Origin: Prevotella sp.
GTDB lineage: Bacteria > Bacteroidota > Bacteroidia > Bacteroidales > Bacteroidaceae
Assembly: GCA_017442825.1 (NCBI GenBank)
Contig: JAFRYZ010000030.1
Location: 38,772-102,771, forward strand
DNA length: 64,000 nucleotides
Reading direction: 5' to 3'
Below the pieces are notes generated by a model. That model was not told the DNA's origin, did no database searches, and worked only from the letters and a program-made list of their open reading frames with translations. This document shows positions 15,661 through 40,031 of the stretch, piece by piece; position 1 is the first letter of the stretch, and each line of letters starts with the position of its first letter. A program made the translations under genes and the position numbers.

Positions 15661-15828
15661 AAGTGTCTTTTTCTGCCGTTTTTAAAATCATTTAACGATT
15701 AGCGTCTCCTGTGTTTCTATTCTCTATGTTCCCTTTGCTGAGTTTATGTTCTTCAAGACTCCCCGATAAAAAAGTGTTTTTTTTGAATATTTTTGTAGGA
15801 AAAGCGAATGTTATTAAAAAGAAATCGC

Positions 15829-15836
15829 TAATTTTG
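15829..15836 (+). promoter_or_regulatory. Promoter -7 element of the acyltransferase pair
   Basis: TAATTTTG matches TAnnTTTG and lies 24 nt upstream of the ATG at 15861. Because transcription would begin at about 15842, a start codon further upstream (15711) would be outside the transcript. This decides the start of the next gene. Confidence 0.65.
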
Positions 15837-15860
15837 CACGTTGATAGTAATTTTGTGCAT

Positions 15861-16685: not shown

Positions 16686-16698
16686 CAACAAATCTATT

Positions 16699-22577: not shown

Positions 22578-24307
22578 CAAGAATACTCATCATCATCGCC
22601 TTTCTGTTGTCTGTGCTTCCCATGAGTGCACAGCAGAAACGGCATTATACAACGAAGAAATCCGCCGCAGTCCTTCCTGCGTCCAAGCAAACAAAAGCCA
22701 CCCAACAAAAAGGAACTCGTTCCTATCAGCAAACGGGGAAACGTTCTAGTTCCAAGAGGAGGGGAAAAGTCGTCAAAGGTAAGAACGGCAAGATAACCTA
22801 CGAAACGACCGAGGAAATTCGTGGTTTGCAGAAACAACGGTCGCAGATTCAGGCAGAAATCAATAGCAAGGAAAAAGAACTGAAAGCCAAGGAAAGTGAT
22901 GTAAGGCAGCGACTGAATAATCTGGTACAAATTAATACAGAGATAGACCAACATCAGAAATCTATCGACACCATTCAGCGCGACATCCGACACCTTGATG
23001 GTAATATCAATATTCTGAATGCTCAGTTGGCAGAACTGCAAAAACAATTGGACGATCGTAAAGCAAAATTTATTGAGTCTATGCGTTATATGGCACGGCA
23101 TCGTAGCATACAGGATAAAATTATGTTTATCTTCAGTGCCAAAAGTCTGACGCAGATGTATCGTCGCTTGCGTTTCGTGCGTCAATATGCCACCTTCCAG
23201 CGTGCTCAAGGAAAGTTGGTGCAGGAGAAGCAGCAGCAAGTGAATGCAAAAAACCAACAGTTGCAGGGTGTTCGCCATACGAAGAATACGTTGCTGAACA
23301 AAGACCAGCGTATCAAGGCTGAATTGCAGGGTAAGCATGCGGAGCAGCAAAAGGTAGTGGAATCGCTGAAGGCTGAGCAGAAGACGCTTCAGGATGTGTT
23401 GGTACAGCAACGTCAGAAACAAGCTGCGTTGAATGCACAGATTGATAAGCTCATCGCCATAGAGATAAGGAAAGCTCGTGAACGTGCTATTGCCGAAGCT
23501 AAAGCTCGTGCTGCTGCCGAGGCTGCAGCACGAAAGAAACGTGCCGAAGAAGCTGCTCGAAAGAAAGCTGCTGCTGAGGCTGCAGCACGTGAAAATGCCC
23601 GCCGCATAGCTGAAGCTAAGGCTCGTGAAGAAAGGGCGAAGGCTGAGGCTCGCGCCGCTGCCGAGGCTGCCCGTAAGGCGCGTGCTGAAGAGCGTGCTGC
23701 TGCCGCTGCGGCTGAGTCACAACGCCGTGCTGAAGCTGCTGCCGAAGCTCAACGCCGTGCCGAACAGGCTGCCCGTGAGGCTGAGTCAGCTCGTTTGGCA
23801 GCCGAACGCAAGGCTGATGTTGACCGAAAACGAGCAGAGGAAGAGCGTAAGCGTGAGGAACGAGAAGAGCGTTCTGTAGAAACCGAGTCTTTCAACAGTG
23901 CCGACCGTGCTCTCAGTGGTAGCTTTGCTAACAACAAGGGGCGTTTGCCCATGCCCTTGGCAGGACGTATTGTCAGCCGCTACGGACAATATAGTGTTGA
24001 GGGGCTTCACAACGTACATTTATCGAACAATGGAATTAACATAAAAGGCTCTCCCGGTGCCACCGTGCGTTGTGTTTTTGCCGGTGAAGTTAGTGCTGTC
24101 TTCGGATTCAGTGGTACGAGCGTCGTCATGGTGCGCCACGGTGCCTATATCTCAGTATATTGTAACTTGACAAACGTTCATGTAGGCAAGGGGCAAAAGG
24201 TGTCAGCGCGTCAATCTCTCGGTACTGTCGGCAACGATGGAATCCTTCAGTTCCAGTTGCGTAAGGAAACGGCTAAACTCAATCCAGAGGCATGGTTGGG
24301 ACGTTAA
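22574..24307 (+). CDS. EnvC-like murein hydrolase activator (degenerate M23 domain)
   Basis: 577 aa. Signal peptide (MTRILIIIAFLLSVLPMSAQ), a basic linker, long coiled coils (residues ~75-290), an Ala/Arg/Glu-rich helix (~295-440) and a C-terminal LytM/M23 domain (~455-575). The zinc ligands of active M23 enzymes are missing: the HxxxD position reads NNGIN and the HxH position reads LQFQLR. That is the EnvC pattern, where a dead LytM domain activates amidases for septal splitting. The ATGA overlap with the upstream lipoprotein suggests coupled translation. Confidence 0.85.
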   Translation: MTRILIIIAFLLSVLPMSAQQKRHYTTKKSAAVLPASKQTKATQQKGTRSYQQTGKRSSSKRRGKVVKGKNGKITYETTEEIRGLQKQRSQIQAEINSKEKELKAKESDVRQRLNNLVQINTEIDQHQKSIDTIQRDIRHLDGNINILNAQLAELQKQLDDRKAKFIESMRYMARHRSIQDKIMFIFSAKSLTQMYRRLRFVRQYATFQRAQGKLVQEKQQQVNAKNQQLQGVRHTKNTLLNKDQRIKAELQGKHAEQQKVVESLKAEQKTLQDVLVQQRQKQAALNAQIDKLIAIEIRKARERAIAEAKARAAAEAAARKKRAEEAARKKAAAEAAARENARRIAEAKAREERAKAEARAAAEAARKARAEERAAAAAAESQRRAEAAAEAQRRAEQAAREAESARLAAERKADVDRKRAEEERKREEREERSVETESFNSADRALSGSFANNKGRLPMPLAGRIVSRYGQYSVEGLHNVHLSNNGINIKGSPGATVRCVFAGEVSAVFGFSGTSVVMVRHGAYISVYCNLTNVHVGKGQKVSARQSLGTVGNDGILQFQLRKETAKLNPEAWLGR

Positions 24308-26181
24308 TTAAGAAGGTTTCAGGGGCAGTGCTTAGTCCTATTCGGAAAAATGCGCGGTTCTTTTTCTTCATGTACTTATTGGGTATCGTTTGCAGCTATG
24401 TGGTGATGCCCAATCATCGTGGTGCGAAGGTTTATGACAACCTGTGGTTAGAACTGTTGCTGGATACATATGTGGTGTGTGCTTTGTTGTGTATCTTCCC
24501 GAAAAATATTAGACAATGGATTCGGGTTGTCTTTGCCGTTATGACGTATGTGGTGGTGTTGGCTGATGTCTTTTGTTTTGTTCGCTTCGGTGCCACGTTG
24601 AATCCCACCATGTTGTTACTGGCAGGTGAAACAACAGGAAAAGAGGCATCAGAGTTCTTCAGTTCCTATCTTTCTAGCGATCTCTTTTTTTCTGGTTGCG
24701 GATGGGTACTGCTGATTGCCACAATGCACGCTTGCGTAGCTTTGGGCTTGTGGCATAAATTAACCAAGTCGTTTGGTTTATTGATGAAACGCCATCTGCC
24801 ATCCCTTACATCTCGTCTATCATCTCTCCCTTCCAGTCTTGTCACTCTCATACCTTATCTCTTGTCCATAGTCTTGGTTGCACTCCTTATCTGGGCAGTC
24901 TTGGCTTCGTGGCGCAACAAAGTGCTGATGGTAGAAATGTTTGAGAAGGAAAATATAGGACAAGTAGAGCACGAACTGACAAAGAAGGAGCATGCGGAGT
25001 TCTATTTGCCGTTGTATCGTCTTGTCTTCAGTATGTTCTCCAACCAACTGACTGACGAACAGGTGGAAAAGTTGATTGCAGCCAAGGACAAGGTACAGGT
25101 GGATAGTTGTTCGTTTAGAAGTCCGCACATCGTGCTGATTATTGGTGAGAGTTATAACAAGCATCATTCTCAACTCTATGGATACAAGAAACCTACGGCA
25201 CCACGGCAAGTGGCACGACGACGAACGGGACGATTGGTTTCCTTTTCCGATGTTGTTGCACCTTGGAACTTGACGAGTTATGTCTTTAAGAATATGTTCT
25301 CCATGCATGTGGTGGGACAGAAGGGTGAGTGGTGCGACTATCCTCTCTTCCCTGAAATATTCCGTAAGGCAGGCTATCATGTTACTTTTTTGACCAATCA
25401 GTTCTTGCCTAAGGCGAAAGAAGCAGTATTTGATTTCTCAGGTGGTTTCTTCCTAAACGACCCAGAACTGAGTGCTGCACAGTTTGACACTCGGAACACC
25501 GGTGTTCATATATTGGATGAGGGACTTTTGGAAGACTATGATGAGCTGAAGGAGATGAGTCGTAGGGATAAGGAGAGTAAGCCGCAGTTGACAATCTTCC
25601 ATCTGATGGGTCAGCACGTGAATTACAACCAACGCTATCCTAAGTGCCAACGGAAATGGACAGGTGATGACTACGAGCGCCCAGACCTGACACCTAAGAA
25701 ACGCGACATCTTGTCGCATTATGATAATGCCACACTTTACAACGACTCTATCGTCGATCAGATTCTGAGGCGGTTGGAACACGAGGATGTTATAGCCATC
25801 TACCTCTCTGATCACGGTGAAGAATGCTTCGATGACGGTTTCAAATATCACGGACGTGACCATAGTGCTGAGATAACACCCAGGTTGGCACATCAAGAGT
25901 TTGACGTTCCTTTCTGGGTATGGTGCTCACGCAAGTATGTTAACCATCATCCTGCTATATTCAAAGAGGTGGTTAGGGCGAAAGACCGTCCGCTGATGAC
26001 CGATGCACTACCTCATTTGCTGTTGTATCTTGCCGGTATCGAAACGAAAGACTATCACGAGGAGTATAATGTGTTGTCGCCGAAGTATGACCATCAGCGT
26101 AAACGCATTATCAAGGCAACAGTGGACTATGATAAATTGACAATTGATGAAAGACGGAATATTGACACGGACAGAATGTAA
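24292..26181 (+). CDS. Phosphoethanolamine transferase (EptA/sulfatase family)
   Basis: 629 aa inner-membrane protein. About five N-terminal membrane helices (residues 20-210) precede a periplasmic alkaline-phosphatase-fold domain with VLIIGESYNKHHSQLYGY (metal-binding Glu), PWNLTSYVFK containing the likely catalytic Thr, FHLMGQHVNYNQRYP and YLSDHGEECFDD (metal-binding Asp/His). The family moves phosphoethanolamine from phosphatidylethanolamine to lipid A or glycans; the acceptor cannot be told. It overlaps the preceding gene by 16 nt. Confidence 0.9.
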   Translation: MVGTLIKKVSGAVLSPIRKNARFFFFMYLLGIVCSYVVMPNHRGAKVYDNLWLELLLDTYVVCALLCIFPKNIRQWIRVVFAVMTYVVVLADVFCFVRFGATLNPTMLLLAGETTGKEASEFFSSYLSSDLFFSGCGWVLLIATMHACVALGLWHKLTKSFGLLMKRHLPSLTSRLSSLPSSLVTLIPYLLSIVLVALLIWAVLASWRNKVLMVEMFEKENIGQVEHELTKKEHAEFYLPLYRLVFSMFSNQLTDEQVEKLIAAKDKVQVDSCSFRSPHIVLIIGESYNKHHSQLYGYKKPTAPRQVARRRTGRLVSFSDVVAPWNLTSYVFKNMFSMHVVGQKGEWCDYPLFPEIFRKAGYHVTFLTNQFLPKAKEAVFDFSGGFFLNDPELSAAQFDTRNTGVHILDEGLLEDYDELKEMSRRDKESKPQLTIFHLMGQHVNYNQRYPKCQRKWTGDDYERPDLTPKKRDILSHYDNATLYNDSIVDQILRRLEHEDVIAIYLSDHGEECFDDGFKYHGRDHSAEITPRLAHQEFDVPFWVWCSRKYVNHHPAIFKEVVRAKDRPLMTDALPHLLLYLAGIETKDYHEEYNVLSPKYDHQRKRIIKATVDYDKLTIDERRNIDTDRM

Positions 26182-27193
26182 TGCTTTGCGAGGAATAGCT
26201 ATTATTGGCATTTTCTTGCATAACTATTGCCATTGGCTACCTGGCATTGTCAGGGAGAACGAATACCAGTTTTTTCAGAAGAATGTCGATGGGCTGAATG
26301 GAGTGCTGACGCACCCAGATGGGTTGTTGCCAATACATCTCTTGTCGTTCTTTGGTCATTATGGAGTGCCGCTGTTCCTCTTTCTTAGTGCTTACGGTTT
26401 GGTTCGGAAATACGAACAGGCGCAACCCTATATTACACCAGGAAAAGTGAAGGATTTGCCTCTTGTATGGCGATTCATACGTGAACATTTTGCAAAACTT
26501 TTTAAGATGATGTTCTTCGGTTACATACTTTTCCTTATGGTGGATACTATCTTGCCGAAGGGACACCACTATCACTGGCTTGACATCATTGCTCAGTTGG
26601 GTATGTTTAATAATGTGCTCCCCAACCCTGACCATATTATCTGGCCTGGTCCCTATTGGTTTTTCGGACTGATGTTGCAGTTGTATGTTGTCTATCGTTT
26701 GTTGTTGTATCGTCGTCATTGGGGATGGACAGTGGCGTTGATGGCAATTTGTACATTAGCTCAACTGTTGTTTGCGCCAGAGAGTGAGGAACTGAACCGA
26801 TATCGCTATAACTTTATGGGCGGAATGTTGCCGTTTGGACTCGGTCTGCTCTACGGAAGAATGCCAAAATCTTTGCCTCAAAGTTACAATTGGTTGTTCT
26901 TTATCATCTCGCTGTTACTTATCTATACTGAAGGGCAGACCTTCTGGGGGTGGATGTTGGTGCCGTTGTTTGTATGTTCTGCTGGTTTCACATTGGTGAA
27001 AGTGCTGCCCGTTTGGTTATTAAAGATCATGGAGTGGATGGGGGGTATTTCGGCAGCTCTCTTCGTATGTCATCCTGTGGCTCGACGTGTCTTCATCGGA
27101 TTGTCTTATCGTGGCGATATGCTGGAAGGATTGTTGCTCTACATCTTGTCGGCAATTGCCTTGGCATTATTATATAAAAGAGTAATAAAGTAA
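26147..27193 (+). CDS. Acyltransferase-3 family membrane protein
   Basis: Polytopic protein of 348 aa with about ten membrane segments. It begins with the family pattern CNALRGIAIIGIFLHNYCHW (R then H in the first helix) and carries LSFFGHYGVPLFLFLSAYGLV. Such enzymes O-acetylate or otherwise acylate surface polysaccharides and lipids. The ATG at 26147 is used (the frame opens with TTG at 26144); it overlaps the upstream gene by 35 nt. The substrate is unknown. Confidence 0.85.
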   Translation: MKDGILTRTECNALRGIAIIGIFLHNYCHWLPGIVRENEYQFFQKNVDGLNGVLTHPDGLLPIHLLSFFGHYGVPLFLFLSAYGLVRKYEQAQPYITPGKVKDLPLVWRFIREHFAKLFKMMFFGYILFLMVDTILPKGHHYHWLDIIAQLGMFNNVLPNPDHIIWPGPYWFFGLMLQLYVVYRLLLYRRHWGWTVALMAICTLAQLLFAPESEELNRYRYNFMGGMLPFGLGLLYGRMPKSLPQSYNWLFFIISLLLIYTEGQTFWGWMLVPLFVCSAGFTLVKVLPVWLLKIMEWMGGISAALFVCHPVARRVFIGLSYRGDMLEGLLLYILSAIALALLYKRVIK

Positions 27194-27263
27194 TTAGGAG
27201 TAATAACATCGTTTATCTTTCAGACGAACAAGAAGAAAAGGAAGTAGATGAGTAGAAAAGAAT

Positions 27264-28301
27264 ATGAGTAGAAGAGAAATTGCTTTGGAAAAGATAAGTC
27301 GCTATCGTGGTGAACTGATGGGGGCTGCAATGCTCTTTATTGTCTTTTTTCATGTGGGATTGCCGCGCACAGACATGTTCTTCGGTTTGCGCCGTATGGG
27401 TAATGTCGGCGTGGATATGTTCCTTTTCCTCAGTGGAATGGGTTTGTGGTTCTCCTGGATGAGGAATAGTCAGTCCTTACCTTCTGGTTCTCATCCTTCC
27501 TTTATTAGCTTTTACAAGCGTCGCTTCCTGCGTATCTATCCTGCCTGGTTGTTGGTTGCTAGTGTTTTCTATATCTCCAAATACTTGGAAGGACCTCAGT
27601 ATAGTGCCAATATCGTGGACTTAATCGGTGACATTACCTTGAATTGGGATTTCTGGTTGCATGACGAACTGACGTTTTGGTATATTCCTGCAACAATGAT
27701 GCTTTATATATTTGCTCCGTTCTATATGGAATTGGTAAGGCGTCATCCTGTATTCCGCTGGTTGCCGGTGGCAATGGTAATGTGGTGTGTTATCGTCCAA
27801 TATGTATTACCTATCCATCAGGCGGTAGGACATATCGAAATATTTTGGAGTCGCGTACCTATTTTCTTTATCGGTGTCAATATGGGTGAGTGGATTCGCC
27901 AAAAGAAGACTATTGACGGCAGTGCTATTTGGCTGATTTTATGGTTGTTTGTTATGTCGCTGGCAGCCTGTATCTATTTGGAACAGATGCGTCATGGTAA
28001 GTTCCCGCTCTTTCTCGAGCGTATGCTATATATCCCGATGACGGTTTCAGGATTGTTGCTGCTTTGCGAACTGTTTAGTCTTGTTCCGCAGTGGGTGAGA
28101 AGGTCGTTGACCTTTGTTGGCACCATTAGCCTGGAAATGTATCTGTTGCATGTGCAGTTTGTTTTGCTCTATATCGAGAAATGGGGATGGAGCTATTGGC
28201 CAAAGGTGTTGGTTTGTCTTGCTTTATCGCTACCATTAGCATGGGTGTTACACAAAATGATAGAATTCTTGATTAAACCGATTGAAAAGAGAATGAAATG
28301 A
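27264..28301 (+). CDS. Acyltransferase-3 family membrane protein
   Basis: 345 aa, about ten membrane segments, with the family marks YRGELMGAAMLFIVFFHVGLP (catalytic His) and GNVGVDMFLFLSGMGLWFSW. It is a second, clearly different member beside the 26147 gene, so two acyl decorations are likely. The start at 27264 (MSRREIALEK) is preceded by a near-duplicate of its own first codons (MSRKEYE then stop, 27248-27271). It overlaps the UbiA-like gene by 4 nt. Confidence 0.88.
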   Translation: MSRREIALEKISRYRGELMGAAMLFIVFFHVGLPRTDMFFGLRRMGNVGVDMFLFLSGMGLWFSWMRNSQSLPSGSHPSFISFYKRRFLRIYPAWLLVASVFYISKYLEGPQYSANIVDLIGDITLNWDFWLHDELTFWYIPATMMLYIFAPFYMELVRRHPVFRWLPVAMVMWCVIVQYVLPIHQAVGHIEIFWSRVPIFFIGVNMGEWIRQKKTIDGSAIWLILWLFVMSLAACIYLEQMRHGKFPLFLERMLYIPMTVSGLLLLCELFSLVPQWVRRSLTFVGTISLEMYLLHVQFVLLYIEKWGWSYWPKVLVCLALSLPLAWVLHKMIEFLIKPIEKRMK

Positions 28302-29230
28302 AAGAGATATTGAAACTGATAAGACCTCAGCAGTGGGTAAAGAATTTATTTGTCTTTATTCCTGCCTTCTTTGGTGGCGGACTTTTAGATACTGACCGTA
28401 TGCTGTCAGCATTGCTGGCTTTTTTTTCTTTCAGTTTTGCCGCTTCTTCCATCTATTGCCTGAACGACATTGCTGACTTGGAAGCCGATCGCAAGCATCC
28501 CGTGAAGTGTCATCGTCCGATAGCATCGGGAGCTGTCAGTGTAGCACAAGCCTATAGTTTGATGGCTTTGTTCTTTTTCTTGTCCATGGCTGTGGCATTA
28601 TTGTTTTTTATCCCTCATTTTTCATCTTTCATCTTTCTTTCGAGTTCTGCTCGCTTCGCTAGCGAAGAACCTTCCTACTTTATCTTTGTCATTCTTTTCT
28701 ATTGGTTGCTCAATATAGCCTATTGCCTGTGGTTGAAACATTATGCCATTATCGACGTGTGTGTGGTAGCCTTCGGCTTTGTCCTGCGTATTCTTGCCGG
28801 TGGAGCAGCAACGGCTATCGTACTGAGTAAGTGGTTGGTATTGATGACGTTCTTGCTGACATTATTCTTGTCGTTTGCTAAGCGACGTGATGACGTGTTG
28901 CGTATGGAGGCAACGGGTGAAGCACCACGACGCAATACCAGCCGATACAATCTGACGTTTATCAACCAGGCAATTACCATTACAGCCAGTGTAATGCTGG
29001 TTTGCTATATCATGTACACGGTTTCACCGGAAGTAGTAGCGCGTTTCCATACTGATTATCTCTATCTTACGACAATTTTCGTTTTAGTGGGATTGTTGCG
29101 CTATATCCAATTGGCAGTTGTCGATCAGCAGAGTGGAGACCCGACGAAGGTCATTTGGCGTGACCGTTTTACTCAATGTGTCGTAGTGGCATGGGGTTTG
29201 AGTTTCCTCTTGCTCATTTATCTAGTATAA
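28298..29230 (+). CDS. UbiA-family prenyltransferase, polyprenyl-phosphate phosphoribosyltransferase-like
   Basis: 310 aa, about nine membrane helices. The first Asp-rich motif reads CLNDIADLEADRKHP (N56, D57, D60, D64), followed by KCHRPIASG. This arrangement matches decaprenyl-phosphate 5-phosphoribosyltransferase (mycobacterial UbiA) better than quinone or heme prenyltransferases. The gene is directly followed by an HAD phosphatase, as expected for a polyprenyl-phospho-pentose pathway. A Ser-rich cytoplasmic or periplasmic loop near residues 107-125 contains a 14-bp DNA palindrome. A lipid-quinone role cannot be fully excluded. Confidence 0.75.
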   Translation: MKEILKLIRPQQWVKNLFVFIPAFFGGGLLDTDRMLSALLAFFSFSFAASSIYCLNDIADLEADRKHPVKCHRPIASGAVSVAQAYSLMALFFFLSMAVALLFFIPHFSSFIFLSSSARFASEEPSYFIFVILFYWLLNIAYCLWLKHYAIIDVCVVAFGFVLRILAGGAATAIVLSKWLVLMTFLLTLFLSFAKRRDDVLRMEATGEAPRRNTSRYNLTFINQAITITASVMLVCYIMYTVSPEVVARFHTDYLYLTTIFVLVGLLRYIQLAVVDQQSGDPTKVIWRDRFTQCVVVAWGLSFLLLIYLV

Positions 29231-29231
29231 G

Positions 29232-29849
29232 ATGAAGAAGAAAGTTTATGCATTCGACTTCGACGGCACACTGACCACGAAGGACACGTTGCTGGAATTC
29301 ATTCGTTATGCCTGCGGAAAGAGGAGGCTGTGGATGGGATTGTTACTCTTTTCGCCATTGTTGGTACTGATGAAATTACATCTTTATCCGAACTGGAAGG
29401 TAAAGCAACTGTTTTTTGCCCATTACTTTCGTGGAATGGATATAGAAAGATTTGATGACCTGTGCCGTCGTTTTGCTATAGATAATAACCATTTGTTGCG
29501 TAAAAACGGTATCGCGGTTATCAGGAATGCCTTGGCAGAAAGTTCACAGGTGATTATTGTCAGTGCCAGTATCGAAAACTGGGTACGTCCGTTCTTTCTA
29601 CAGTTTGGTAATGAGGTACAGGTAGCATGTACGAAAATCGATGTCCGTCACGAACGGGTGACGGGAAAGTTTCTGACTAAGAACTGTTATGGTCAAGAGA
29701 AGGTGAAGCGCATAGACCGTGCCTTTCCACATCGTAAGACTTACGAACTGATTGCATTTGGCGACAGTAAGGGCGACAAGAAGATGCTGGAGTATGCAGA
29801 CCGCAGTTATTATAAACCTTTTAGAGCTGTTTCGGAGGTGTATGTATGA
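29232..29849 (+). CDS. HAD-IB family phosphatase
   Basis: 205 aa. Motif I FDFDGTLTTKDT (nucleophile D9), motif II VSASIENW (Ser) and motif IV AFGDSKGDKKML are intact, so an active phosphatase is expected. A membrane-like stretch MGLLLFSPLLVLMKL sits in the cap region. It starts 1 nt after the UbiA-like gene and overlaps the next by 4 nt. HAD-IB and UbiA domains are also found fused in other bacteria; the inferred role is removal of the 5-phosphate from polyprenyl-phospho-5-phosphoribose. Confidence 0.85.
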   Translation: MKKKVYAFDFDGTLTTKDTLLEFIRYACGKRRLWMGLLLFSPLLVLMKLHLYPNWKVKQLFFAHYFRGMDIERFDDLCRRFAIDNNHLLRKNGIAVIRNALAESSQVIIVSASIENWVRPFFLQFGNEVQVACTKIDVRHERVTGKFLTKNCYGQEKVKRIDRAFPHRKTYELIAFGDSKGDKKMLEYADRSYYKPFRAVSEVYV

Positions 29850-31273
29850 AACAGAACTTAACAAGAAAAAGTTTTTTGTCGTGGAGGCTCTTCACGATCA
29901 ATCGTGAAGAGCGGTGGGTTGCTCTGACAGCATTGGTGTTCTTCGTAGCATTGAATGCGTTGACAATAGCTCGCTATTATGAGCAATTCTCTCCACCGAC
30001 GGATGATTATTGGACCTTGTTCATTTTTGGTTTCAAGGTTTCAGGTTTTGACCCCATCACTTATTATGTTGTCTCGGATTGGGAAGCGCGTTACAATGTT
30101 TATCGTCATCCGCTGTTATCGTTCTATATGTATCTTCCATATTTGCTGAACAAAGGGCTGATGTGGCTGACGGGTATTAACTGTGTCCAGTTTGTGGTAG
30201 GTTTCATCTTAGTGTTTAGTGGTTTCTATTCGTTCATTTTTTTGTATAGGGTACTTAGGGAGATGGTGGATTTGCGCCACAGTGACGCTTTCTTATTGAC
30301 AGGAATGTTCTTCTCTTTTGCCTTCATCATGTTGTCTGCAATGGTTCCCGACCATTTTGTCATATCGCTCATGCTATTGTTGCTGACCATGTATGAAACA
30401 GGAAAGCACATGAAGGAACGAAAAGAGATGACGGTTTGGACGACGATAATCCTCTTTGTCGCTACGGCAGGTGTTTCGTTGAATAATGGTCTGAAGATTT
30501 TCATGGCATCGTGGTTTGCCAATGGCAAACGTTTCTTTACGCCGAAACATCTTTTCTTAGCCGTCATCCTGCCTGCTGCTCTCATGTGGGGCTTTTGCCG
30601 ATTTGAATATCGCCAGTTTGTATGGGAGAATGAACAGGCTCGCCATGCGTTGAAAGCACAAAAGCAGAAAACTGCAGCACAAAGGACAAAAGTCATAGAG
30701 TCAAAACCGACATCGACGGCAAAGAAAGACACGACCTCCCACAAACCTGTTCCTGTCTCGAAGCCGACAAAAAAAAGGCAAATCCAGGGTGCTCCGCTGA
30801 TGGGTGGCGAGTTCATGCGTTGGACAGATATCACCACGTCGCGCTGGGGTTCTGTCGTGGAGAATCTTTTCGGCGAATCTATCCAGTTGCATACTGACTA
30901 CTTGTTGCAGGACGTTTTCCGGTCACGCCCCATGATAGTATCCTATCGCTATGTCTTTCCCTATATCATAGAAGGCATCATCGTCTTGCTCTTCCTTACA
31001 GGTATCTGGATGGGCCGTCACAGTCGTTTCCTGTGGTTGGCGCTGTCGTGGTTTTTGTTGGATGTGGCACTTCACATCGGTTTAGGTTTCGGAATTAACG
31101 AAGTATATATCATGTCGGCACATTGGATGTTTGTGATACCTATTGCAATCGGGTATCTGTTCCGTTATTGTAATTTACGATTATTGCCGTGGATACGTGG
31201 GATTGTCATGTTGCTCATAGTGTACCTATTTATATATAATGGTAGCTTAATCGGTCAGTTCCTACTGAAATAA
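29846..31273 (+). CDS. Polytopic membrane protein, candidate GT-C glycosyltransferase (paralog 1)
   Basis: 475 aa with about ten membrane helices and a basic, low-complexity loop at residues ~265-310. Paralogous to the 31275 and 36579 genes. Blocks shared by all three: VSGFD (65-69) after helix 1, RHPL (87-90), PDHF, NGxKI, ENxFGES with YLLQDV, and EVYIMxAHW near the end. An invariant Asp in the first extracytoplasmic loop followed by HPL is the layout of GT-C enzymes using polyprenyl-phospho-sugars. I recall the family as DUF6080; function is inferred, not known. Confidence 0.7.
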   Translation: MKQNLTRKSFLSWRLFTINREERWVALTALVFFVALNALTIARYYEQFSPPTDDYWTLFIFGFKVSGFDPITYYVVSDWEARYNVYRHPLLSFYMYLPYLLNKGLMWLTGINCVQFVVGFILVFSGFYSFIFLYRVLREMVDLRHSDAFLLTGMFFSFAFIMLSAMVPDHFVISLMLLLLTMYETGKHMKERKEMTVWTTIILFVATAGVSLNNGLKIFMASWFANGKRFFTPKHLFLAVILPAALMWGFCRFEYRQFVWENEQARHALKAQKQKTAAQRTKVIESKPTSTAKKDTTSHKPVPVSKPTKKRQIQGAPLMGGEFMRWTDITTSRWGSVVENLFGESIQLHTDYLLQDVFRSRPMIVSYRYVFPYIIEGIIVLLFLTGIWMGRHSRFLWLALSWFLLDVALHIGLGFGINEVYIMSAHWMFVIPIAIGYLFRYCNLRLLPWIRGIVMLLIVYLFIYNGSLIGQFLLK

Positions 31274-31274
31274 A

Positions 31275-32690
31275 ATGAAAACCAGATTCCGTGTCTCGAA
31301 AGAAGAAGCAATTCCTGCATCTATCATGACTCTTGTTTTTGCTGTCATGCAGATGTTGGTGGTGAGGCGTTTCTTTGATACTGTCATCAGCAGATTGCAT
31401 GGAGATGGCAGCGACTTTATTCACGCCATGCCTGTTTCTGGTTTCGATGCCTATGCCTGCTCCATGCTTGCTGATTGGACGATAGCTTATGACCCATACC
31501 GTCATCCGTTAATAGCTTTATTCTATTATCCTTTGTATGGACTGAATCAGTTGTTTATTGGAATAACGGGACTGAATTGTTCCTATTTCATCATGGCTGT
31601 ATTCTTGTTGGCAGGGGTCTTCTACAGCTATGTCTTTCTATATCGTATTTGCCGTGAGTTGATAGGTTTGTGCCGTTTCGATGCGAATTTGTTGTCGGTG
31701 ATGTTGTTTTCCATGGCATATATCATCTTATCCATGCTCATTCCTGACCACTTTGGCTTGTCCATGCCATTACTTATTATTGCCTTGTATATATCGGGTT
31801 CGGCAATGAAAGCAGGATATCAATTCTCTGTTCGACAGACATGGCTGTTGTTTCTTCCAATAGCAGGATTGACTCTCAGCAACGGGATTAAGGTGTTTTT
31901 GGATGCATGGTTTGTCAACGGTAGACGTTTCTTCCGACTGCGTTATCTTTTGATGGCAATTCTATTTCCTTCAGCAATATTATGGGGGATAGCCTCTATA
32001 GAGAATAGTGTGCGGGACGATGTTAACAATGCTGTGAAGCTCAAGAACGATAAAATTTTCAGGTCACAGTTGTTGGCACAGATTACGGATACTGCCAGCA
32101 TCAAAGACAGCGCATATATTCATTCTCTGTTTAAGAGAGAGGTAAACAAAAGAATTTGGGCAAGGTATCGCCAGAGTCATCAATATGATCATATTCCAAG
32201 GCAGAAAGGGAAACCGATTAGTAATAAGGGATTTTTAAGTTGGACGGATTTGTCAACATCGCGATGGGAAACGTTTGTAGAAAACTTTTTTGGGGAATCG
32301 TTGCTATTACATGAAGATTACTTGTTGCAGGATGTTTTTCGCGGTAGACCTGTCATAGTGCATTATCAGAATGCATTTCAATATATCGTTGAGATACTCC
32401 TTTTATTACTATTTGTTGCGGGTGTCTGGTGTGGAAAACATTCTCGTTTTTTGTGGATGTGTCTGGCAGGAATGAGTGTCGATATTTTCCTTCATCTGGT
32501 CTTAGGCTTTGCTATAGATGAAGTCTATATCATGACAGCCCATTGGGCATTTGTCATTCCTATTGTCATAGGTTTTCTTTTAGCTTCCGTACCACTGCGA
32601 ATACAAGCATTTCTACGGATACTATTGATGGTGGCAACAACTTTCCTTTGGATATATAATGGAAAATTGTTGTTGTCATATTTGGTCTGA
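31275..32690 (+). CDS. Polytopic membrane protein, candidate GT-C glycosyltransferase (paralog 2)
   Basis: 471 aa, same family as its upstream neighbour, which ends 1 nt before. It has VSGFD at residues 54-58, RHPL at 76-79, IPDHFG, SNGIKV, FGESLLLHEDYLLQDV and DEVYIMTAHW. The N-terminus lacks the NREERW stretch of the other two paralogs. Last gene of the plus-strand operon; the convergent glycosyltransferase gene ends 3 nt away, so no terminator fits between them. Confidence 0.7.
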   Translation: MKTRFRVSKEEAIPASIMTLVFAVMQMLVVRRFFDTVISRLHGDGSDFIHAMPVSGFDAYACSMLADWTIAYDPYRHPLIALFYYPLYGLNQLFIGITGLNCSYFIMAVFLLAGVFYSYVFLYRICRELIGLCRFDANLLSVMLFSMAYIILSMLIPDHFGLSMPLLIIALYISGSAMKAGYQFSVRQTWLLFLPIAGLTLSNGIKVFLDAWFVNGRRFFRLRYLLMAILFPSAILWGIASIENSVRDDVNNAVKLKNDKIFRSQLLAQITDTASIKDSAYIHSLFKREVNKRIWARYRQSHQYDHIPRQKGKPISNKGFLSWTDLSTSRWETFVENFFGESLLLHEDYLLQDVFRGRPVIVHYQNAFQYIVEILLLLLFVAGVWCGKHSRFLWMCLAGMSVDIFLHLVLGFAIDEVYIMTAHWAFVIPIVIGFLLASVPLRIQAFLRILLMVATTFLWIYNGKLLLSYLV

Positions 32691-32692
32691 TA

Positions 32693-33997
32693 TCAGAAGC
32701 CGTTGTGTAGTTTGAAGATCTTATAGCCGGCTTTCTTCCATAAGGAAATGAAAGTGTCAATAGTAGGCAGAAAAGAATAAAGAATTGGGAACTTTGACTT
32801 CAGCAATCGCAGTCTATCTTTGAGTTGTTTGAGTTCAAAACAGGGATGAGCTAAAGGATAGATGTCATGTAGGTGCGTGTTCTTGGGTATGCATTCTGTG
32901 AGCAGTCGCTCCCATTCTTCAGCGATAATTTCTTGTGAGAAATGTTCATTGATAAAGCTGATAGCTTCATCATAGTTGTTGTCTTTCCTCTGGAGTTCCC
33001 TGATAATGCTGGCTGCAAGTTGAGACCGTTTTTTGTAAATGGTACCGTTTCTGATGGTATCGAGGTAGCCGGCACATTGATAAGCAGCAATTCTGGCACC
33101 TGCCATTTGCATTTCAACCCCACAGATGCAAAAAGTTTCAGTCAGGCCAGAAGGATTAGGAACTCCGACTTTGGTGATTCCGAGGATTTCTTCTTTCTCT
33201 TTGCCCATGATGCCCATGAGATGAACACCAGGAAGCAGTTTGTCTCCTTCGGTAAGATATTTCATGAACTTGTTCTCGTAGTTCTCTTCAGCCAAATTCC
33301 ATTTTCCCAATTTCCCTCCACCATACAATTCTCCATTTCCAATGACATAGAGTTCAGCATCGGGAATATCCTTCAAAACTTCTTTCCATGCCTTTGCCAA
33401 GATGTGAAATCCTTTTCCTGGCACAACGGCTCCCATGTAAGTGACGATATTCTTTCTTTGTGAGAAAGGGAGGACGTTGAATGTTGATGTAGTCAGTCGT
33501 GGAACGTCAATGCTGTTATAGATATATTCCGACTTCAGAAATGCCCTGTGGTCGCGGTAAGTGTCTAATTGTTCCCGTCCCACGTTGATAATCTTGATGA
33601 CATTCTTGCTTTTCGCATAGAGTTTCAGAGCTTTGTTGTCAGCAAAGTTGTGACACCAAATCAAGAGTTTGGTCTTTCCCTCTTGTGTGAACATGGTTAG
33701 CTCTTCGTCCGAATAGTGCTCGTGGTGTTTAAAAAGGAAGTAATCTATTTCCTTTTCCTGACAAATATGGTAAGCCTCCATGAGCTGGCTGACGTTTATC
33801 ACTTTTACCTCTTTTGGGAAAAGTGCTTTTTGCGGTGTAAACAGTATCACTTCAATACCATTTTCCCTGGTTGAGAGCAAGTAGGAGATGAGGCAGAACA
33901 TGTAGGGGGTTCCTGCAAAGCCTGGATTGCCTGAGGATATATAGCGACAGTCCATGCCTTCTTTGATGTTACCACGGAAGAAAATACCTAATTTCAT
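32693..33997 (-). CDS. Glycosyltransferase, GT4-like
   Basis: 434 aa, cytoplasmic, with a GT-B layout. The N-terminal half has RGNIKEGMDCRYISSG and the C-terminal half YMGAVVPGKGFHILAKAW, AELYVIGNG and NPSGLTETFCICGVEMQMAG (E-x7-E donor-binding region). It is the last gene of a three-gene minus-strand operon with the flippase and a GT2-like gene. Donor and acceptor are unknown. Confidence 0.8.
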   Translation of the reverse strand: MKLGIFFRGNIKEGMDCRYISSGNPGFAGTPYMFCLISYLLSTRENGIEVILFTPQKALFPKEVKVINVSQLMEAYHICQEKEIDYFLFKHHEHYSDEELTMFTQEGKTKLLIWCHNFADNKALKLYAKSKNVIKIINVGREQLDTYRDHRAFLKSEYIYNSIDVPRLTTSTFNVLPFSQRKNIVTYMGAVVPGKGFHILAKAWKEVLKDIPDAELYVIGNGELYGGGKLGKWNLAEENYENKFMKYLTEGDKLLPGVHLMGIMGKEKEEILGITKVGVPNPSGLTETFCICGVEMQMAGARIAAYQCAGYLDTIRNGTIYKKRSQLAASIIRELQRKDNNYDEAISFINEHFSQEIIAEEWERLLTECIPKNTHLHDIYPLAHPCFELKQLKDRLRLLKSKFPILYSFLPTIDTFISLWKKAGYKIFKLHNGF

Positions 33998-34021
33998 CTA
34001 TGAATGTTCTTTATAAAAGGT

Positions 34022-35047
34022 TTACACATGCCTGTCACGCCCAATCCACTTATTGATGCGACGCTGTAACGATTTTCCGATTTGCGAAAAATTGCCATAG
34101 TGGAGGTTCAACCATAATTCTTCAAACGACCGTCCGACTTTTATCCATGGGTGATTCCATGCATGAGTCTTATAGACATGTTCTTTATATTCCACATTTT
34201 CTATGACATATCGTGGATGTTTCAGCGGAAATTCCATTTCGTACCGCTTCATGGTAAAGATGCGTTGCAAACGGCGTGGCATGGTTTTCAAGGCAGAATA
34301 GTGGGTGGAGTCGTTGGTGGCTCCTACGTTATTGACCTGATTCCTTGTAGGCATAATGGCAAGACCGCTGTTAAAGAGCATCGTTGACCAAAAAATACTT
34401 TCAAAATATGGCTTTCCGTTGTCGCGATGATCGTGACACATCTTGATAAAGTCGCTTCGCACATTACGCTGTTTGGTCAAGGCTTCCAACTGACGCATAT
34501 TGAAAGTATCGTCAAGAAAGGAGTAGGTACCATCCCACTGCTCAACAACCCTACGCCATGAAGCCCAGCCCCAGATTGCAAAAACAGAAGTAAAGAAGTA
34601 GTCATAAGGCACCTCTGGGGTTATCTCATCAGTGTTGAAACCAGAGATCATCGTTATACGCTCATCATGTTCGTAGCGGTCGAGCATCTCTTTGCAGAAA
34701 GGGAAGAACGATTGTGACGGAACGACATCATCTTCCAGCACCATACACTTGTCTGACAAGGAGAACGCCCACTTGTGAGAGAGGTAGCCAGACGGATCGC
34801 ATCCTTGGTTCTTTTCCTGATAGTTGCGGTGCACCTCGCATTCCCAGTCTATCTGCTCGTCGCTGACAATGGCACGGCAAGCCTCAATGCCCGGCATGTC
34901 TTCCTCTCCTCTTGGTCCGTCTTGATAGAGAAACAGTCGAGAGGGGCGTGCTTTCTTCACTTCCGCAAAAACCTTACTAAAAGAGTCTGCGCGGTTGAAG
35001 AAGAGCATTAGTACGGCGATATCAGTTTTGTATGGGTGCTTTTTCAT
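34022..35047 (-). CDS. Glycosyltransferase, GT-A fold (HlpA-like / GT2-like)
   Basis: 341 aa. VLMLFFNRADSFSKVF opens a nucleotide-diphospho-sugar transferase fold, with VLEDDVVPS as the DxD-type metal motif near residue 120 and AIWGWASWRRVVEQWDG further on. This resembles bacterial proteins annotated as HlpA-like glycosyltransferases. The ATG at 35047 (MKKHPYKTDI) is preferred; the longer frame overlaps the flippase gene. 13 nt separate the two genes. Confidence 0.75.
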   Translation of the reverse strand: MKKHPYKTDIAVLMLFFNRADSFSKVFAEVKKARPSRLFLYQDGPRGEEDMPGIEACRAIVSDEQIDWECEVHRNYQEKNQGCDPSGYLSHKWAFSLSDKCMVLEDDVVPSQSFFPFCKEMLDRYEHDERITMISGFNTDEITPEVPYDYFFTSVFAIWGWASWRRVVEQWDGTYSFLDDTFNMRQLEALTKQRNVRSDFIKMCHDHRDNGKPYFESIFWSTMLFNSGLAIMPTRNQVNNVGATNDSTHYSALKTMPRRLQRIFTMKRYEMEFPLKHPRYVIENVEYKEHVYKTHAWNHPWIKVGRSFEELWLNLHYGNFSQIGKSLQRRINKWIGRDRHV

Positions 35048-35060
35048 ATATAAAGAGGTG

Positions 35061-36503
35061 TTATTTTTTGAATTTTGACAGGATGAAGTTGCTGCATTCT
35101 TCCATGATCTTGGCATGTGCGAGTCTTAAAACAAGGTAGTATATTGCGGCAGCCATGGCGACACGTGCCAAAAGGAGCAGTAGCAGGTTTGAGAAAGATA
35201 CCGTTGCGAAGTAGGTGAGTATCATGGTGCCTGCTGCAATAACAGCGAAAGGCATCAAATCTTTCAGTAACATCAATAGGTTGTAACCTGTTTGTTTCCA
35301 GACAAAAGAGTGCCAGACAAACATCCAAAGAATGTTCAACGCAGTATAGACGATAACCATTGTGCGTATGCCGTAGGGATAGAGGCAGAACATCAGGATG
35401 ATTTCGCAGATACCAAGGCAAAGCGTGGAATAAAGATAAATGTCTGAGCGTCCTTTGCTGATAATCAAGTTAGAAAGAAGCGTACTGATAGGTGTTAGAG
35501 CACCACCGATACAAAGAATCTGTAATAATGTTGCACTGAACAACCATTTCTCTGTTATCGTGATGACGATGAATTCGTGAGCGACCAAAGCAAAGCCGAA
35601 GAGCAGAGGGAAGGAAAGGAAGGCTGTGAACCTGACGAGCTTGCGCAAGGCACGAAGTTGTCGCTCACGGTCCTCGTTTAAATCAACAAAAACAGGCTGA
35701 GCTACCGTTTGAACCATACTCTGTAACAGGTATGATGCCTTGTTGTTCCATTGGTAAGCTTGGTTATAGTTGCCTGCATCCTTCGGAGTATAATAGCGAC
35801 CAAGAAGAATGTTCAGGATATTGTTGTTGACTTGTGTGATGATGGCTGTAAACATGATTTTACAGCTGAACCGGAACATCTGGCGGGCGGGAGTGAAGTT
35901 CCAGTGCAGGGATGGGCGCCAGTCGGAATAGTACCAATACATCAGGGTACAACAGAGGATGTATAGGTTGGATTGGGTAGCTAACGACCAGTAGGTGAAC
36001 CCCATCAATGCCATGGTGATGCCAACACCATTGGAGATGACCATTGCTGTTATGATGCTTTTTGCCTGTTGCTTGGTACGCAGGTTTTTGAACAGGTATG
36101 CCGATTGTGCCATACCGAAACTGGAGAATATGCATCCTAAGAAAGCATAGCGACATAAAGGCACGAGGTCTGGCGTGTGGTAATACTCGGCTATTAGCGG
36201 TGCAGTGAAGAAAAGTAATATGTATAGGCAGAAACTGACGAGAATGTTAAACCAAAATACCGAGTTGTAGTCTTGATGAGTAGGGCTCGGCAAGTTGGAC
36301 AATGCCACTTTAAACCCGCTGTTTTGCAATTCGGTAGCAATAACGGAGAAAATGGTAATCATGGCTATCATACCATAATCTGACGGTGAGAGAATGCGTC
36401 CTAGCACGATACCCGCCAGCAAACCGATAAGTTGCTGTGCACCGCTGCTGAATCCTCCCCAAAACAGTCCTTTTGCCGTTTTCTCTTTTAGTGTATCACT
36501 CAT
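35061..36503 (-). CDS. Wzx-like lipopolysaccharide/polysaccharide flippase
   Basis: 480 aa with about 12-14 membrane segments, in the MOP superfamily that flips undecaprenyl-linked repeat units. The N-terminus KGLFWGGFSSGAQQLIGLLAGIVLGRILSP and SPSDYGMIAMI are typical of this group. First gene of the minus-strand operon with two glycosyltransferases; its promoter lies at 36514-36521. No Wzy polymerase is recognised nearby. Confidence 0.88.
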   Translation of the reverse strand: MSDTLKEKTAKGLFWGGFSSGAQQLIGLLAGIVLGRILSPSDYGMIAMITIFSVIATELQNSGFKVALSNLPSPTHQDYNSVFWFNILVSFCLYILLFFTAPLIAEYYHTPDLVPLCRYAFLGCIFSSFGMAQSAYLFKNLRTKQQAKSIITAMVISNGVGITMALMGFTYWSLATQSNLYILCCTLMYWYYSDWRPSLHWNFTPARQMFRFSCKIMFTAIITQVNNNILNILLGRYYTPKDAGNYNQAYQWNNKASYLLQSMVQTVAQPVFVDLNEDRERQLRALRKLVRFTAFLSFPLLFGFALVAHEFIVITITEKWLFSATLLQILCIGGALTPISTLLSNLIISKGRSDIYLYSTLCLGICEIILMFCLYPYGIRTMVIVYTALNILWMFVWHSFVWKQTGYNLLMLLKDLMPFAVIAAGTMILTYFATVSFSNLLLLLLARVAMAAAIYYLVLRLAHAKIMEECSNFILSKFKK

Positions 36504-36513
36504 AGCTTGGGGA

Positions 36514-36521
36514 CAAAGGTA
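36514..36521 (-). promoter_or_regulatory. Promoter -7 element of the flippase operon
   Basis: TACCTTTG on the minus strand, 10 nt from the ATG at 36503. It is back to back with the plus-strand promoter at 36564-36571, so the 75-bp gap drives both directions. Confidence 0.65.
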
Positions 36522-36563
36522 CGAAATTCTTTATACATTGAACTTTAAACTTCAAACTTTTAT

Positions 36564-36571
36564 TATCTTTG
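36564..36571 (+). promoter_or_regulatory. Promoter -7 element of membrane paralog 3
   Basis: TATCTTTG lies 7 nt before the ATG at 36579, so the transcript would begin at or just before the start codon. A TTG at 36538-36540 is a weak -33 candidate. Confidence 0.6.
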
Positions 36572-36578
36572 CAGCCGC

Positions 36579-37925
36579 ATGAGAAAAGCATTAAGCATAT
36601 TTGGCATCAAACGTGAGGAACGGTGGTTGGCTTTAGTGGCATTGTTGTTCTTTGCTGCGTTGAATGCATTGATGGTTGCCTATCAGCACCCACTGTTTAC
36701 CAAAGGCGGAAACTTGGGATATTGGAGTATTTTTTATCAACATTTCCGCGTGTCGGGGTTCGACTGCTATGCTTATATTGCCATGTCGCAGTGGCGGTTA
36801 TTGTATGCCGTTATCCGCCATCCTCTCTATTTTGTCATTTTGTATCCTTGTTATCTGTTAAACCATTGGCAAATGGGGTGGACAGGTTTCAATATGGCGA
36901 TCTATTTGATGGCGGTGTTGTTGGTCGTGTGTGATGTCTATAGCTGTATTTTCCTGTATCGGATTCTGCGTGAGATATTGGAAATGCGGCGTCGAGAAGC
37001 CTATCTGCTGACAGCTTTGTTCTTCTCGTTTGCCAGTATCATGCTGACAAGCTTTGTTCCTGATCATTTTGCGTTTTCTATGCTGTTGCTGTTGCTTTCG
37101 TTGTATGTCTTCGGGTGTCATCTGAAAGCTAAAACTCCGATGAAACCGTGGAAAACGATGTTGCTTTTCCTGTTTTCGTCGGGCATCTCTCTGACCAACG
37201 GCGTGAAGATTGGGTTGGGGGCACTCTTTACGAACGGCAAGCATGTGTTCCGTCCCCACTATCTGTTCGTGGCTTTCGTCCTGCCCCTGTTCATCCTCCT
37301 CGGAGCATTCGTTTTTCAGAACGAGACGCTGGTGAAACCCGATACCGTGCGGTCGGCTTCTATCTTGGAAAAACGACTCAAGAAGGATTCCGTCTATGCC
37401 AAGCAGATAGCCGAACGGAGTAAGGAAGCTGAAAATAGAGTGGAGGGACAAATCATCGACTCGCCGCTTTTTGAGTTTACCGACGTGCGGACACCGAAGC
37501 TGGAAGCTGCCGTAGAGAATCTTTTCGGTGAGTCACTACTGTTGCACCGCCGCTATTTGTTGCAGGATGTCAACCAAGGACGTCCCGTTATCGTTGGTTA
37601 CGAGCAAGTATGGCAGTACGGTGTCATCGCTGTCGTTTTCTTCTTGTTCGTCGCAGGGGCGTGGATGGGCAGGAAGAATCGTCTGATGCAACTCTGCTTA
37701 GCGTGGTTTTCCACCGATTTGTTGCTGCATATCGCTTTGGGCTTCGGCATCACCGAAGTCTATATCATGGGTGCTCACTGGATGTTTATCCTTCCCATTG
37801 CCGCCGGCTTCCTGCTGTTGCGGCTTCCTTCGCGCTGGCGTATAGCTTTACAAGTACTCCTCCTCTCACTGACCCTGTTGTTTGTGCTCTACAACGGTAT
37901 GCACATTGTGCAATATATGTTGTAG
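36579..37925 (+). CDS. Polytopic membrane protein, candidate GT-C glycosyltransferase (paralog 3)
   Basis: 448 aa, third member of the family at 29846 and 31275. It has VSGFD at residues 58-62, RHPL at 80-83, PDHF, SLTNGVKI, ENLFGESLLLHRRYLLQDV and EVYIMGAHW. It is monocistronic, isolated from the other two by the flippase operon on the opposite strand, and has its own promoter. Its N-terminus (GIKREERWLAL) resembles paralog 1 (TINREERWVAL), so these two may be closer relatives. Confidence 0.7.
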   Translation: MRKALSIFGIKREERWLALVALLFFAALNALMVAYQHPLFTKGGNLGYWSIFYQHFRVSGFDCYAYIAMSQWRLLYAVIRHPLYFVILYPCYLLNHWQMGWTGFNMAIYLMAVLLVVCDVYSCIFLYRILREILEMRRREAYLLTALFFSFASIMLTSFVPDHFAFSMLLLLLSLYVFGCHLKAKTPMKPWKTMLLFLFSSGISLTNGVKIGLGALFTNGKHVFRPHYLFVAFVLPLFILLGAFVFQNETLVKPDTVRSASILEKRLKKDSVYAKQIAERSKEAENRVEGQIIDSPLFEFTDVRTPKLEAAVENLFGESLLLHRRYLLQDVNQGRPVIVGYEQVWQYGVIAVVFFLFVAGAWMGRKNRLMQLCLAWFSTDLLLHIALGFGITEVYIMGAHWMFILPIAAGFLLLRLPSRWRIALQVLLLSLTLLFVLYNGMHIVQYML

Positions 37926-37976: not shown

Positions 37977-38837
37977 TCACGCGCGAGAAGAAGGAGAGGC
38001 GAAAGAAAGTTGGGATGGCTTATGGTTGATTTGTTGTTCTTTGGGTAGATACTTCTGTATTTTTCCGTAATGTGTCAGTAGATAGCTTTCCAGATTTTGG
38101 GGAACCATAGCCTTTAAAGGACCGAATGGGGCAATGCTTGGTGGGGTGATGTCATGTACCAAAACCTTGTCGCTTCGCGTCATGATATTTTTGCAATAGC
38201 GGTGGCTGTGATTGTTGAAAAACGTTTGGATAAACTGAAGCAGGCGATGGAGTTTATGCTTACTCATCAGCGTGTTGATAAGGCGGGTGACGAGGCAAGG
38301 CAGATATCCCCGCTTCAAAGGTTTGTCCACTTCACAATGACCACAGTGTTCCCATTGCCATACTTCCTTCCCAATGAAACAGGCGTGGAAGAAACTGAAA
38401 GCATGGTATTGGAAGATTTCAAGTATTCTGGAATTTGGTATCTCGTCGAATGGGAAAATATCGACAAAGATACCATGATGAATGTCCAACCTTTTAAAAT
38501 GACCTTCTACATAGAGCGTGTTGTTCTCCCTAACCTTTGCAAACCAGAAAGGGGAGTGTGGATCTGTGGCTTGCGATTGCAGGAAAAAATCACTTTGCAG
38601 TTCCTTTGGTGCAATTTCTATGAATCGCTCATAGTCATCGCGGGGCATGCCGATATCTACGTCATCATCCCAGGGAATGATGCCATCCCAAAAATGGACA
38701 CCAATGGCGGAACCACCAATGAGGAAATAGCACAAGTGGTATTTCTGGCAAATGCGAATTATTTCTGCGGTAATCTTGTATAGATGTTCGTGAAGCAGTT
38801 CCAACTCTTTCTTGGTATATTGTTGTTCTGTTGCCAT
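37977..38837 (-). CDS. LicD-family phosphotransferase
   Basis: 286 aa. The LicD nucleotidyltransferase-like core is clear: YFLIGGSAIGVHFWDGIIPW then DDDVDIGMPRDDYERF (GGS and DDDxD motifs). LicD proteins transfer phosphocholine or polyol phosphates from CDP-activated donors to glycans; animal FKTN/FKRP, which share the domain, transfer ribitol phosphate. The nearby IspD-like cytidylyltransferase and reductase favour a CDP-polyol donor. It has its own promoter at 38858-38865. Confidence 0.88.
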   Translation of the reverse strand: MATEQQYTKKELELLHEHLYKITAEIIRICQKYHLCYFLIGGSAIGVHFWDGIIPWDDDVDIGMPRDDYERFIEIAPKELQSDFFLQSQATDPHSPFWFAKVRENNTLYVEGHFKRLDIHHGIFVDIFPFDEIPNSRILEIFQYHAFSFFHACFIGKEVWQWEHCGHCEVDKPLKRGYLPCLVTRLINTLMSKHKLHRLLQFIQTFFNNHSHRYCKNIMTRSDKVLVHDITPPSIAPFGPLKAMVPQNLESYLLTHYGKIQKYLPKEQQINHKPSQLSFASPSSRA

Positions 38838-38857
38838 AGTCGTTGGTATTCTTGGCG

Positions 38858-38865
38858 CAAAATTA
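38858..38865 (-). promoter_or_regulatory. Promoter -7 element of the licD-like gene
   Basis: TAATTTTG on the minus strand, 20 nt upstream of the LicD start codon; a match to TAnnTTTG in an otherwise empty 84-bp gap. Confidence 0.6.
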
Positions 38866-38921
38866 TAAAAAGGGTTGTGAGCCGTTGGGCTTTTATCGGA
38901 AAAATAATGGAATGGTTGTTC

Positions 38922-39992: not shown

Positions 39993-40031
39993 GTAGAATC
40001 GTTCTTTTTGCTGATTTTTTATATCTAAGGG

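Follow-up and report, generated by a model that had tools for sequence, protein, structure and literature searches.

A probable ribofuranose-decorating gene set with DUF6080 membrane proteins in a Prevotella genome

The mycobacterial decaprenyl-phospho-arabinose pathway proceeds through DPPRS, Rv3807c, DprE1/2 and GT-C arabinosyltransferases, and the outer glycan of Bacteroidota O-glycosylation is presumably assembled in the cytoplasm, with nucleotide sugars as the donors. A three-component pentofuranosylation system was described for Citrobacter youngae O1/O2 (Kelly et al. 2024, PMC11127046), and this three-component pentofuranose pathway was there called widespread in a paper whose main text contains no mention of Bacteroid or Prevotella (PMC11127046). 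The main texts of the literature searched contained no mention of DUF6080, no DPPRS with Bacteroides, no ribofuranose together with polyprenyl for Bacteroid and no report of a pentofuranose pathway in the group of Prevotella.

The window analysed here is a stretch of 64,000 nucleotides from a Prevotella sp. contig (JAFRYZ010000030.1), and its region 24292-37925 includes the following features:

24292-26181, plus strand: CptA/EptA-like phosphoethanolamine (phospho-group) transferase, sulfatase-fold (PF00884, 103 bits)
26144-27193, plus strand: first acyltransferase-3 (AT3) membrane protein (PF01757, 76 bits, cut-off 31)
27264-28301, plus strand: second acyltransferase-3 membrane protein (PF01757, 92.4 bits), with a 4-nt overlap with the UbiA start
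28298-29230, plus strand: UbiA-like gene, 310 aa
29232-29849, plus strand: HAD gene, 205 aa
29846-31273, plus strand: first DUF6080 copy, polytopic, 475 aa (PF19558, 623 bits, cut-off 27)
31275-32690, plus strand: second DUF6080 copy, polytopic, 471 aa (PF19558, 511 bits, cut-off 27)
35061-36503, minus strand: Wzx flippase, like the Bacteroidota protein O-glycosylation type (NF058658 Oglyco_Wzx, 685.6 bits, below the cut-off of 720)
36579-37925, plus strand: third DUF6080 copy (PF19558, 530 bits), divergent from the O-glycosylation-type Wzx gene

The tight array of UbiA, HAD and two membrane protein genes (28298-32690, plus strand) claimed in the sequence-only reading is real, the junctions from the upstream acyltransferase gene onwards being -4, 1, -4 and 1 nt, that is, a 4-nt overlap or 1 nt. 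That reading missed a third DUF6080 gene (36579-37925) and, on the upstream side of the operon, a conserved segment (24292-28301). Among the 55 UbiA-bearing DUF6080 loci, 51 had a homologue of the PEtN-transferase-like gene and 54 had one or more AT3 homologues. The PEtN-transferase-like protein of the window scored 171.9 bits against NF007933 CptA, under the cut-off of 404. The source genome (79% complete) contained one match to the window UbiA and three DUF6080 genes, all within the window. Further upstream (15711-17718, plus strand), the glycine-lipid synthesis genes GlsA and GlsB both scored above NCBIfam cut-offs.

This gene set probably encodes a three-component pathway for decorating a glycan with pentofuranose, handling ribofuranose via a polyprenyl lipid and DUF6080. 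A scheme of reactions, with ribofuranose as the sugar and flipping in the outward direction, may be drawn up for it. The UbiA protein would load ribose onto a membrane lipid as a polyprenyl-phosphate phosphoribosyltransferase, the HAD protein would remove the 5'-phosphate to leave polyprenyl-P-ribofuranose, and the lipid would then be turned outward, a task for a GtrA-type protein in many relatives and for some flippase in the present genome. In the periplasm the DUF6080 proteins, as a GT-C family of their own, would place ribofuranose on a glycan via the loop residue Asp69, and the several fast-diverging copies per genome may serve different acceptor positions. Such a pathway would give a testable function to DUF6080, a Pfam family of unknown function present in 123 of the 200 sampled genomes of the genus, would carry the pathway published in 2024 over to bacteria for which the literature searched does not report it, and predicts a 132-Da residue in Prevotella surface glycans.

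Family membership, the predicted folds of UbiA and of the first DUF6080 protein, gene linkage and kept motifs were all established by computation. The product of 28298-29230 belongs to Pfam UbiA and contains the UbiA-like motif NDIADLEADRKHP that had been read from it earlier; it has the NDxxDxxxD motif given for UbiA-type polyprenyl phosphoribose synthase (PMC11127046). Its structural model was closest to DPPRS and not to other UbiA-fold prenyltransferases, as the earlier reading had anticipated, and its identity to 8j8j was 32% across 284 aligned residues. The protein is therefore predicted, as the most likely assignment from the model, to be a UbiA-fold polyprenyl-phosphate phosphoribosyltransferase (PPPRS/DPPRS-like). 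In genome G080 the UbiA gene looks split by an IS4-family transposase gene, with a 23-aa start on one side (L045:7245-9451).

The HAD protein (PF12710, 107 bits, cut-off 27) is predicted from its family and residues to be a HAD-IB phosphatase removing the ribose 5'-phosphate. Residues D9, D11, S113, K157, D178 and D182 were invariant in 29 of 29 aligned sequences (that of the window plus 28 drawn from 62 full-length sequences), so that an active phosphatase is to be expected. Compared with a HAD-family phosphoribose phosphatase, family and motif agree, the protein is encoded by a separate gene and is not a fused domain, and the substrate is a predicted one. At one locus directly after UbiA (L041:9575-11470), the HAD phosphatase and a DUF6080-like GT-C domain occupy one open frame. 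In a GT-C protein with a cytoplasmic N-terminus, this fusion would put the phosphatase on the side where the substrate is made. The fusion also hints that removal of the donor's phosphate may be physically linked, across the membrane, to the transfer step.

The grouping of UbiA, HAD and DUF6080 is not due to chance. The order UbiA-HAD-DUF6080 was found in 55 of the 80 loci compared, which are the best 80 of the 280 DUF6080 loci found across named genomes and hence the closest relatives, the nearest being Prevotella records; several of the loci end at contig edges. HAD was present in 67 of the 80. As a point against the pathway, twelve loci had HAD without UbiA and thirteen had neither. Twenty-five genomes had UbiA-less loci, of which 22 had an NF008978 match (19 above the cut-off) and three, with genomes of 1.8-2.5 Mb, had none. 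Four operons (L119, L122, L125 and L127) lack UbiA between the second acyltransferase gene and HAD; of their genomes, G129 and G130 have a match elsewhere just under the cut-off and G131 and G132 have no match.

The sequence-only reading had also proposed looking for co-occurrence, and UbiA and DUF6080 were indeed found together in the genus, family and order samples. Among 200 genomes of the genus, both were present in 111, DUF6080 only in 12, UbiA only in 16 and neither in 61 (Fisher's p = 3e-24, a value overstated as the species are related). The 12 of 123 DUF6080 genomes with no NF008978 match were under 90% complete in 11 cases, the other (G413) being at 90. In the sampled GTDB family DUF6080 occurred in 8 of 121 genomes, all eight among the 15 with an NF008978 match. 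Within the order it was over the cut-off in 3 of 247 genomes, with a fourth match below it, and all three were among the 17 genomes with NF008978 at E < 1e-20; at E <= 0.001 there were 41 such genomes, many with weak matches. Outside the genus, one locus had UbiA-HAD-DUF6080 (L192), another the changed order UbiA-DUF6080-HAD (L193) and a third HAD and DUF6080 as one protein beside UbiA (L041). Exceptions within the genus were G075, where UbiA had no HAD match nearby and DUF6080 was on another contig, and G108, where UbiA-HAD and DUF6080 were on different contigs.

A donor of the ribofuranose or arabinofuranose type had been suggested at the outset, and the arabinofuranose part of that suggestion was weakened: arabinofuranose via DprE1 was rejected because a search that matched the query's own genome (G178) gave no DprE1-like match in any of 18 DUF6080 genomes (nine at least 90% complete, the window's genome 79%). 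Ribofuranose is thus the simplest product. It is unlikely that in this pathway the sugar undergoes epimerisation first and is then transferred as arabinofuranose or xylofuranose, despite both variants having been described with epimerases (PMC11127046) and the order holding a UbiA-DprE1-like-SDR-HAD cluster (L203) and a UbiA-epimerase pair (L202). An NAD-dependent epimerase gene does lie about 6 kb from the operon (38922-39992), but it stands with LicD and IspD-like genes, and no epimerase gene is located between UbiA and DUF6080 in the window. Xylofuranose formed by some epimerase is less likely than ribofuranose. PF04030 gave a match in 0 of 16 and was a poor test, as the DprE1-like protein of L203 itself has no PF04030 match. 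The L203 cluster, from another family of the order, has UbiA, a FAD_binding_4 DprE1-like gene, an SDR (DprE2-like) gene and HAD in a row (L203:5941-9494) and is likely an arabinofuranose donor cluster.

For the flipping of polyprenyl-P-ribofuranose, a GtrA-type gene was located between HAD and DUF6080 in 34 of the 80 loci and just before DUF6080 in two more. PF04138 was above its cut-off in five of five proteins scanned, which were those of L068 and L053 (between HAD and DUF6080), L111 (before DUF6080), L040 (after HAD in a genome without DUF6080) and the source genome. GtrA as an obligatory part was rejected, as it is missing next to DUF6080 in 33 of 67 HAD loci by tblastn; in one of these 33, L117, a GtrA-type match does follow HAD directly, at a greater distance from DUF6080. 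The window contains no flippase gene between UbiA and DUF6080, and its Wzx lies 2.4 kb beyond the operon. The sole GtrA match of the source genome (79% complete) is on contig C63, near glycosyltransferase-like genes. There (L153:7827-11910) the surroundings of the GtrA-type gene include genes for a polytopic protein, a DPM-synthase-like glycosyltransferase and further glycosyltransferases, the names being read from sequence and the profile scan covering GtrA only; the group may be a Gtr-type system of its own, for a hexose.

The first DUF6080 copy (29846-31273) models as a GT-C fold, in keeping with what had been proposed for the membrane proteins, and the second and third copies, 40% and 41% identical to it, would share that fold. 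The first copy is predicted to be a pentofuranosyltransferase. The invariant Asp noted earlier in the first outer loop is Asp69 of this copy, which follows the first long helix and was invariant in 106 of 106 aligned sequences (the window's three and 103 of 144 full-length members) and kept in three of three distant DUF6080 members; a conserved acidic residue at this place is a GT-C feature, and Asp69 is presumably catalytic. Mean column identity was 66% for UbiA, 50% for HAD and 37% for DUF6080 across locus sets that differ, and conserved donor genes beside diverging transferases are expected if acceptors vary. A quick tree built from 65 of these 106 sequences, namely the window's three and 62 drawn at random, grouped first and second copies by position; position-specific orthologues were rejected, as neither the first nor the second copies formed one clade, and for that reason no fixed role is claimed for any DUF6080 position.

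By Foldseek alone the first DUF6080 model had no match at E <= 0.001 (best 1.2e-3), and its first ten matches were oligosaccharyltransferase entries. The latter would suit a role of DUF6080 proteins as GT-C enzymes that work with a different lipid donor, such as an OTase or ligase of Bacteroidota O-glycosylation, with UbiA merely in the same glycan cluster, as would the single DUF6080 genes near Wzx and metG (L046, L048). We regard this as very improbable, for DUF6080 is accessory: the samples of genus (200 genomes) and order (247 genomes) include 77 and 244 genomes, respectively, without a match over the cut-off, and such absence is unlike what a general OTase should show. Moreover, DUF6080 follows UbiA from family to family, and one genome has it joined to HAD in a single protein.

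Transfer of ribofuranose by DUF6080 remains the preferred reading, and its acceptor is at best a guess, namely a Wzx-exported glycan such as a protein O-glycan. The window Wzx is a possible mark of an acceptor glycan locus. A long tblastn Wzx homologue was found in 41 of the 80 DUF6080 loci, and eight Wzx proteins from DUF6080 loci (four from the 80) scored 610-697 bits with NF058658, all under the cut-off of 720. In Bacteroides and its relatives the O-glycosylation locus usually opens with metG (PMC12871550). In the Bacteroidota protein O-glycosylation locus (LFG), an O-glycosylation Wzx comes after metG. The metG gene adjoins Wzx near DUF6080 in L046 and L048 and is within a few kb of Wzx in L058, L119 and L122, that is, in three of the 80 loci; among these five the metG scan covers the L046 gene alone, and the window has no metG match. 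Wzx beside the third DUF6080 gene and metG near Wzx in relatives make a protein O-glycan the leading guess. The one published Prevotella O-glycan considered, that of P. intermedia, has no pentose (PMC10897501), which would count against an O-glycan acceptor should that species carry the genes. An LPS or a capsule is also possible as acceptor, as the operon's PEtN-transferase-like and acyltransferase genes would suit either.

It is possible, as a tentative extension, that Prevotellaceae attach ribofuranose, once export is complete, to their general protein O-glycan or to a precursor of it, DUF6080 then being a new GT-C glycosyltransferase family that diversifies by copy number and sequence; this would mean a periplasmic, lipid-donor step in a protein O-glycosylation system of Prevotellaceae. 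On the minus strand of the window, LicD, NAD-dependent epimerase and IspD-like cytidylyltransferase genes lie in a row (37977-40754). The ribitol-phosphate cytidylyltransferase model scored 137.5 here, under the cut-off of 166, and the three genes could make an alditol-phosphate branch such as that on the P. intermedia O-glycan (HPO3-C6H12O5).

Across the order the neighbours of UbiA also include PMT_2, DUF6044, epimerase, SMR-type and Glycos_transf_4 genes. In L043 (7351-9907), L045, L040, L042, L044, L194, L195 and L201, UbiA genes, most with HAD, are near other polytopic proteins that are LA3751-like, PMT_2, DUF6044 or without a family match, and these are possible other GT-C partners for the same donor. 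As UbiA, usually with HAD, stands beside DUF6044 or PMT_2 (the latter a known GT-C family) in other Bacteroidales, the donor module looks reusable. That the UbiA protein is instead an aromatic prenyltransferase, quinone-type or EboC-like, in an incidental neighbourhood is scarcely credible, since profile scores and structure comparison spoke against both identities, notwithstanding its Pfam UbiA membership and the Flavobacteria UbiA-297/EboC proteins that prenylate quinolines (PMC9235831).

Compared with the mycobacterial pathway, DPPRS is homologous to the window UbiA and the final enzymes share the GT-C fold (for DUF6080, by model), whereas a HAD phosphatase replaces Rv3807c, which is described as unrelated to HAD-family phosphatases (PMC11127046), and, of the DprE1/DprE2 epimerisation, DprE1 had no counterpart in the 18 DUF6080 genomes. 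The set resembles Gtr systems (GtrA/GtrB/Gtr, periplasmic glucosylation) in that a polyprenyl-P-sugar would be served by a GT-C enzyme together with, among relatives, a GtrA-type gene; it differs in the predicted donor synthase, which is UbiA-type, working from PRPP, and not a GtrB-type glycosyltransferase. The order of steps, likened earlier to that of mycobacteria, has a closer precedent in the Citrobacter pathway as described (PMC11127046). With that pathway the locus shares, as predicted from the genes, a PRPP-dependent UbiA-type synthase, a HAD phosphoribose phosphatase and a GT-C enzyme acting outside. In Citrobacter, however, the HAD domain is fused to UbiA and the flippase is of the MATE type (PMC11127046), whereas here HAD is its own gene and a GtrA-type gene is either present at the DUF6080 loci or missing. 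A DUF6080 protein is the candidate for the GT-C enzyme, GT136 being the family of C. youngae ORF12, and there are several transferase copies, an operon including PEtN-transferase-like and acyltransferase genes, and a host from the Prevotellaceae. The novelty earlier claimed for Bacteroidales would therefore apply to the present version only, the kind being already known from Citrobacter since 2024 (PMC11127046), and what looks new here is the GT-C family, the gene layout, the use of GtrA and the host group.
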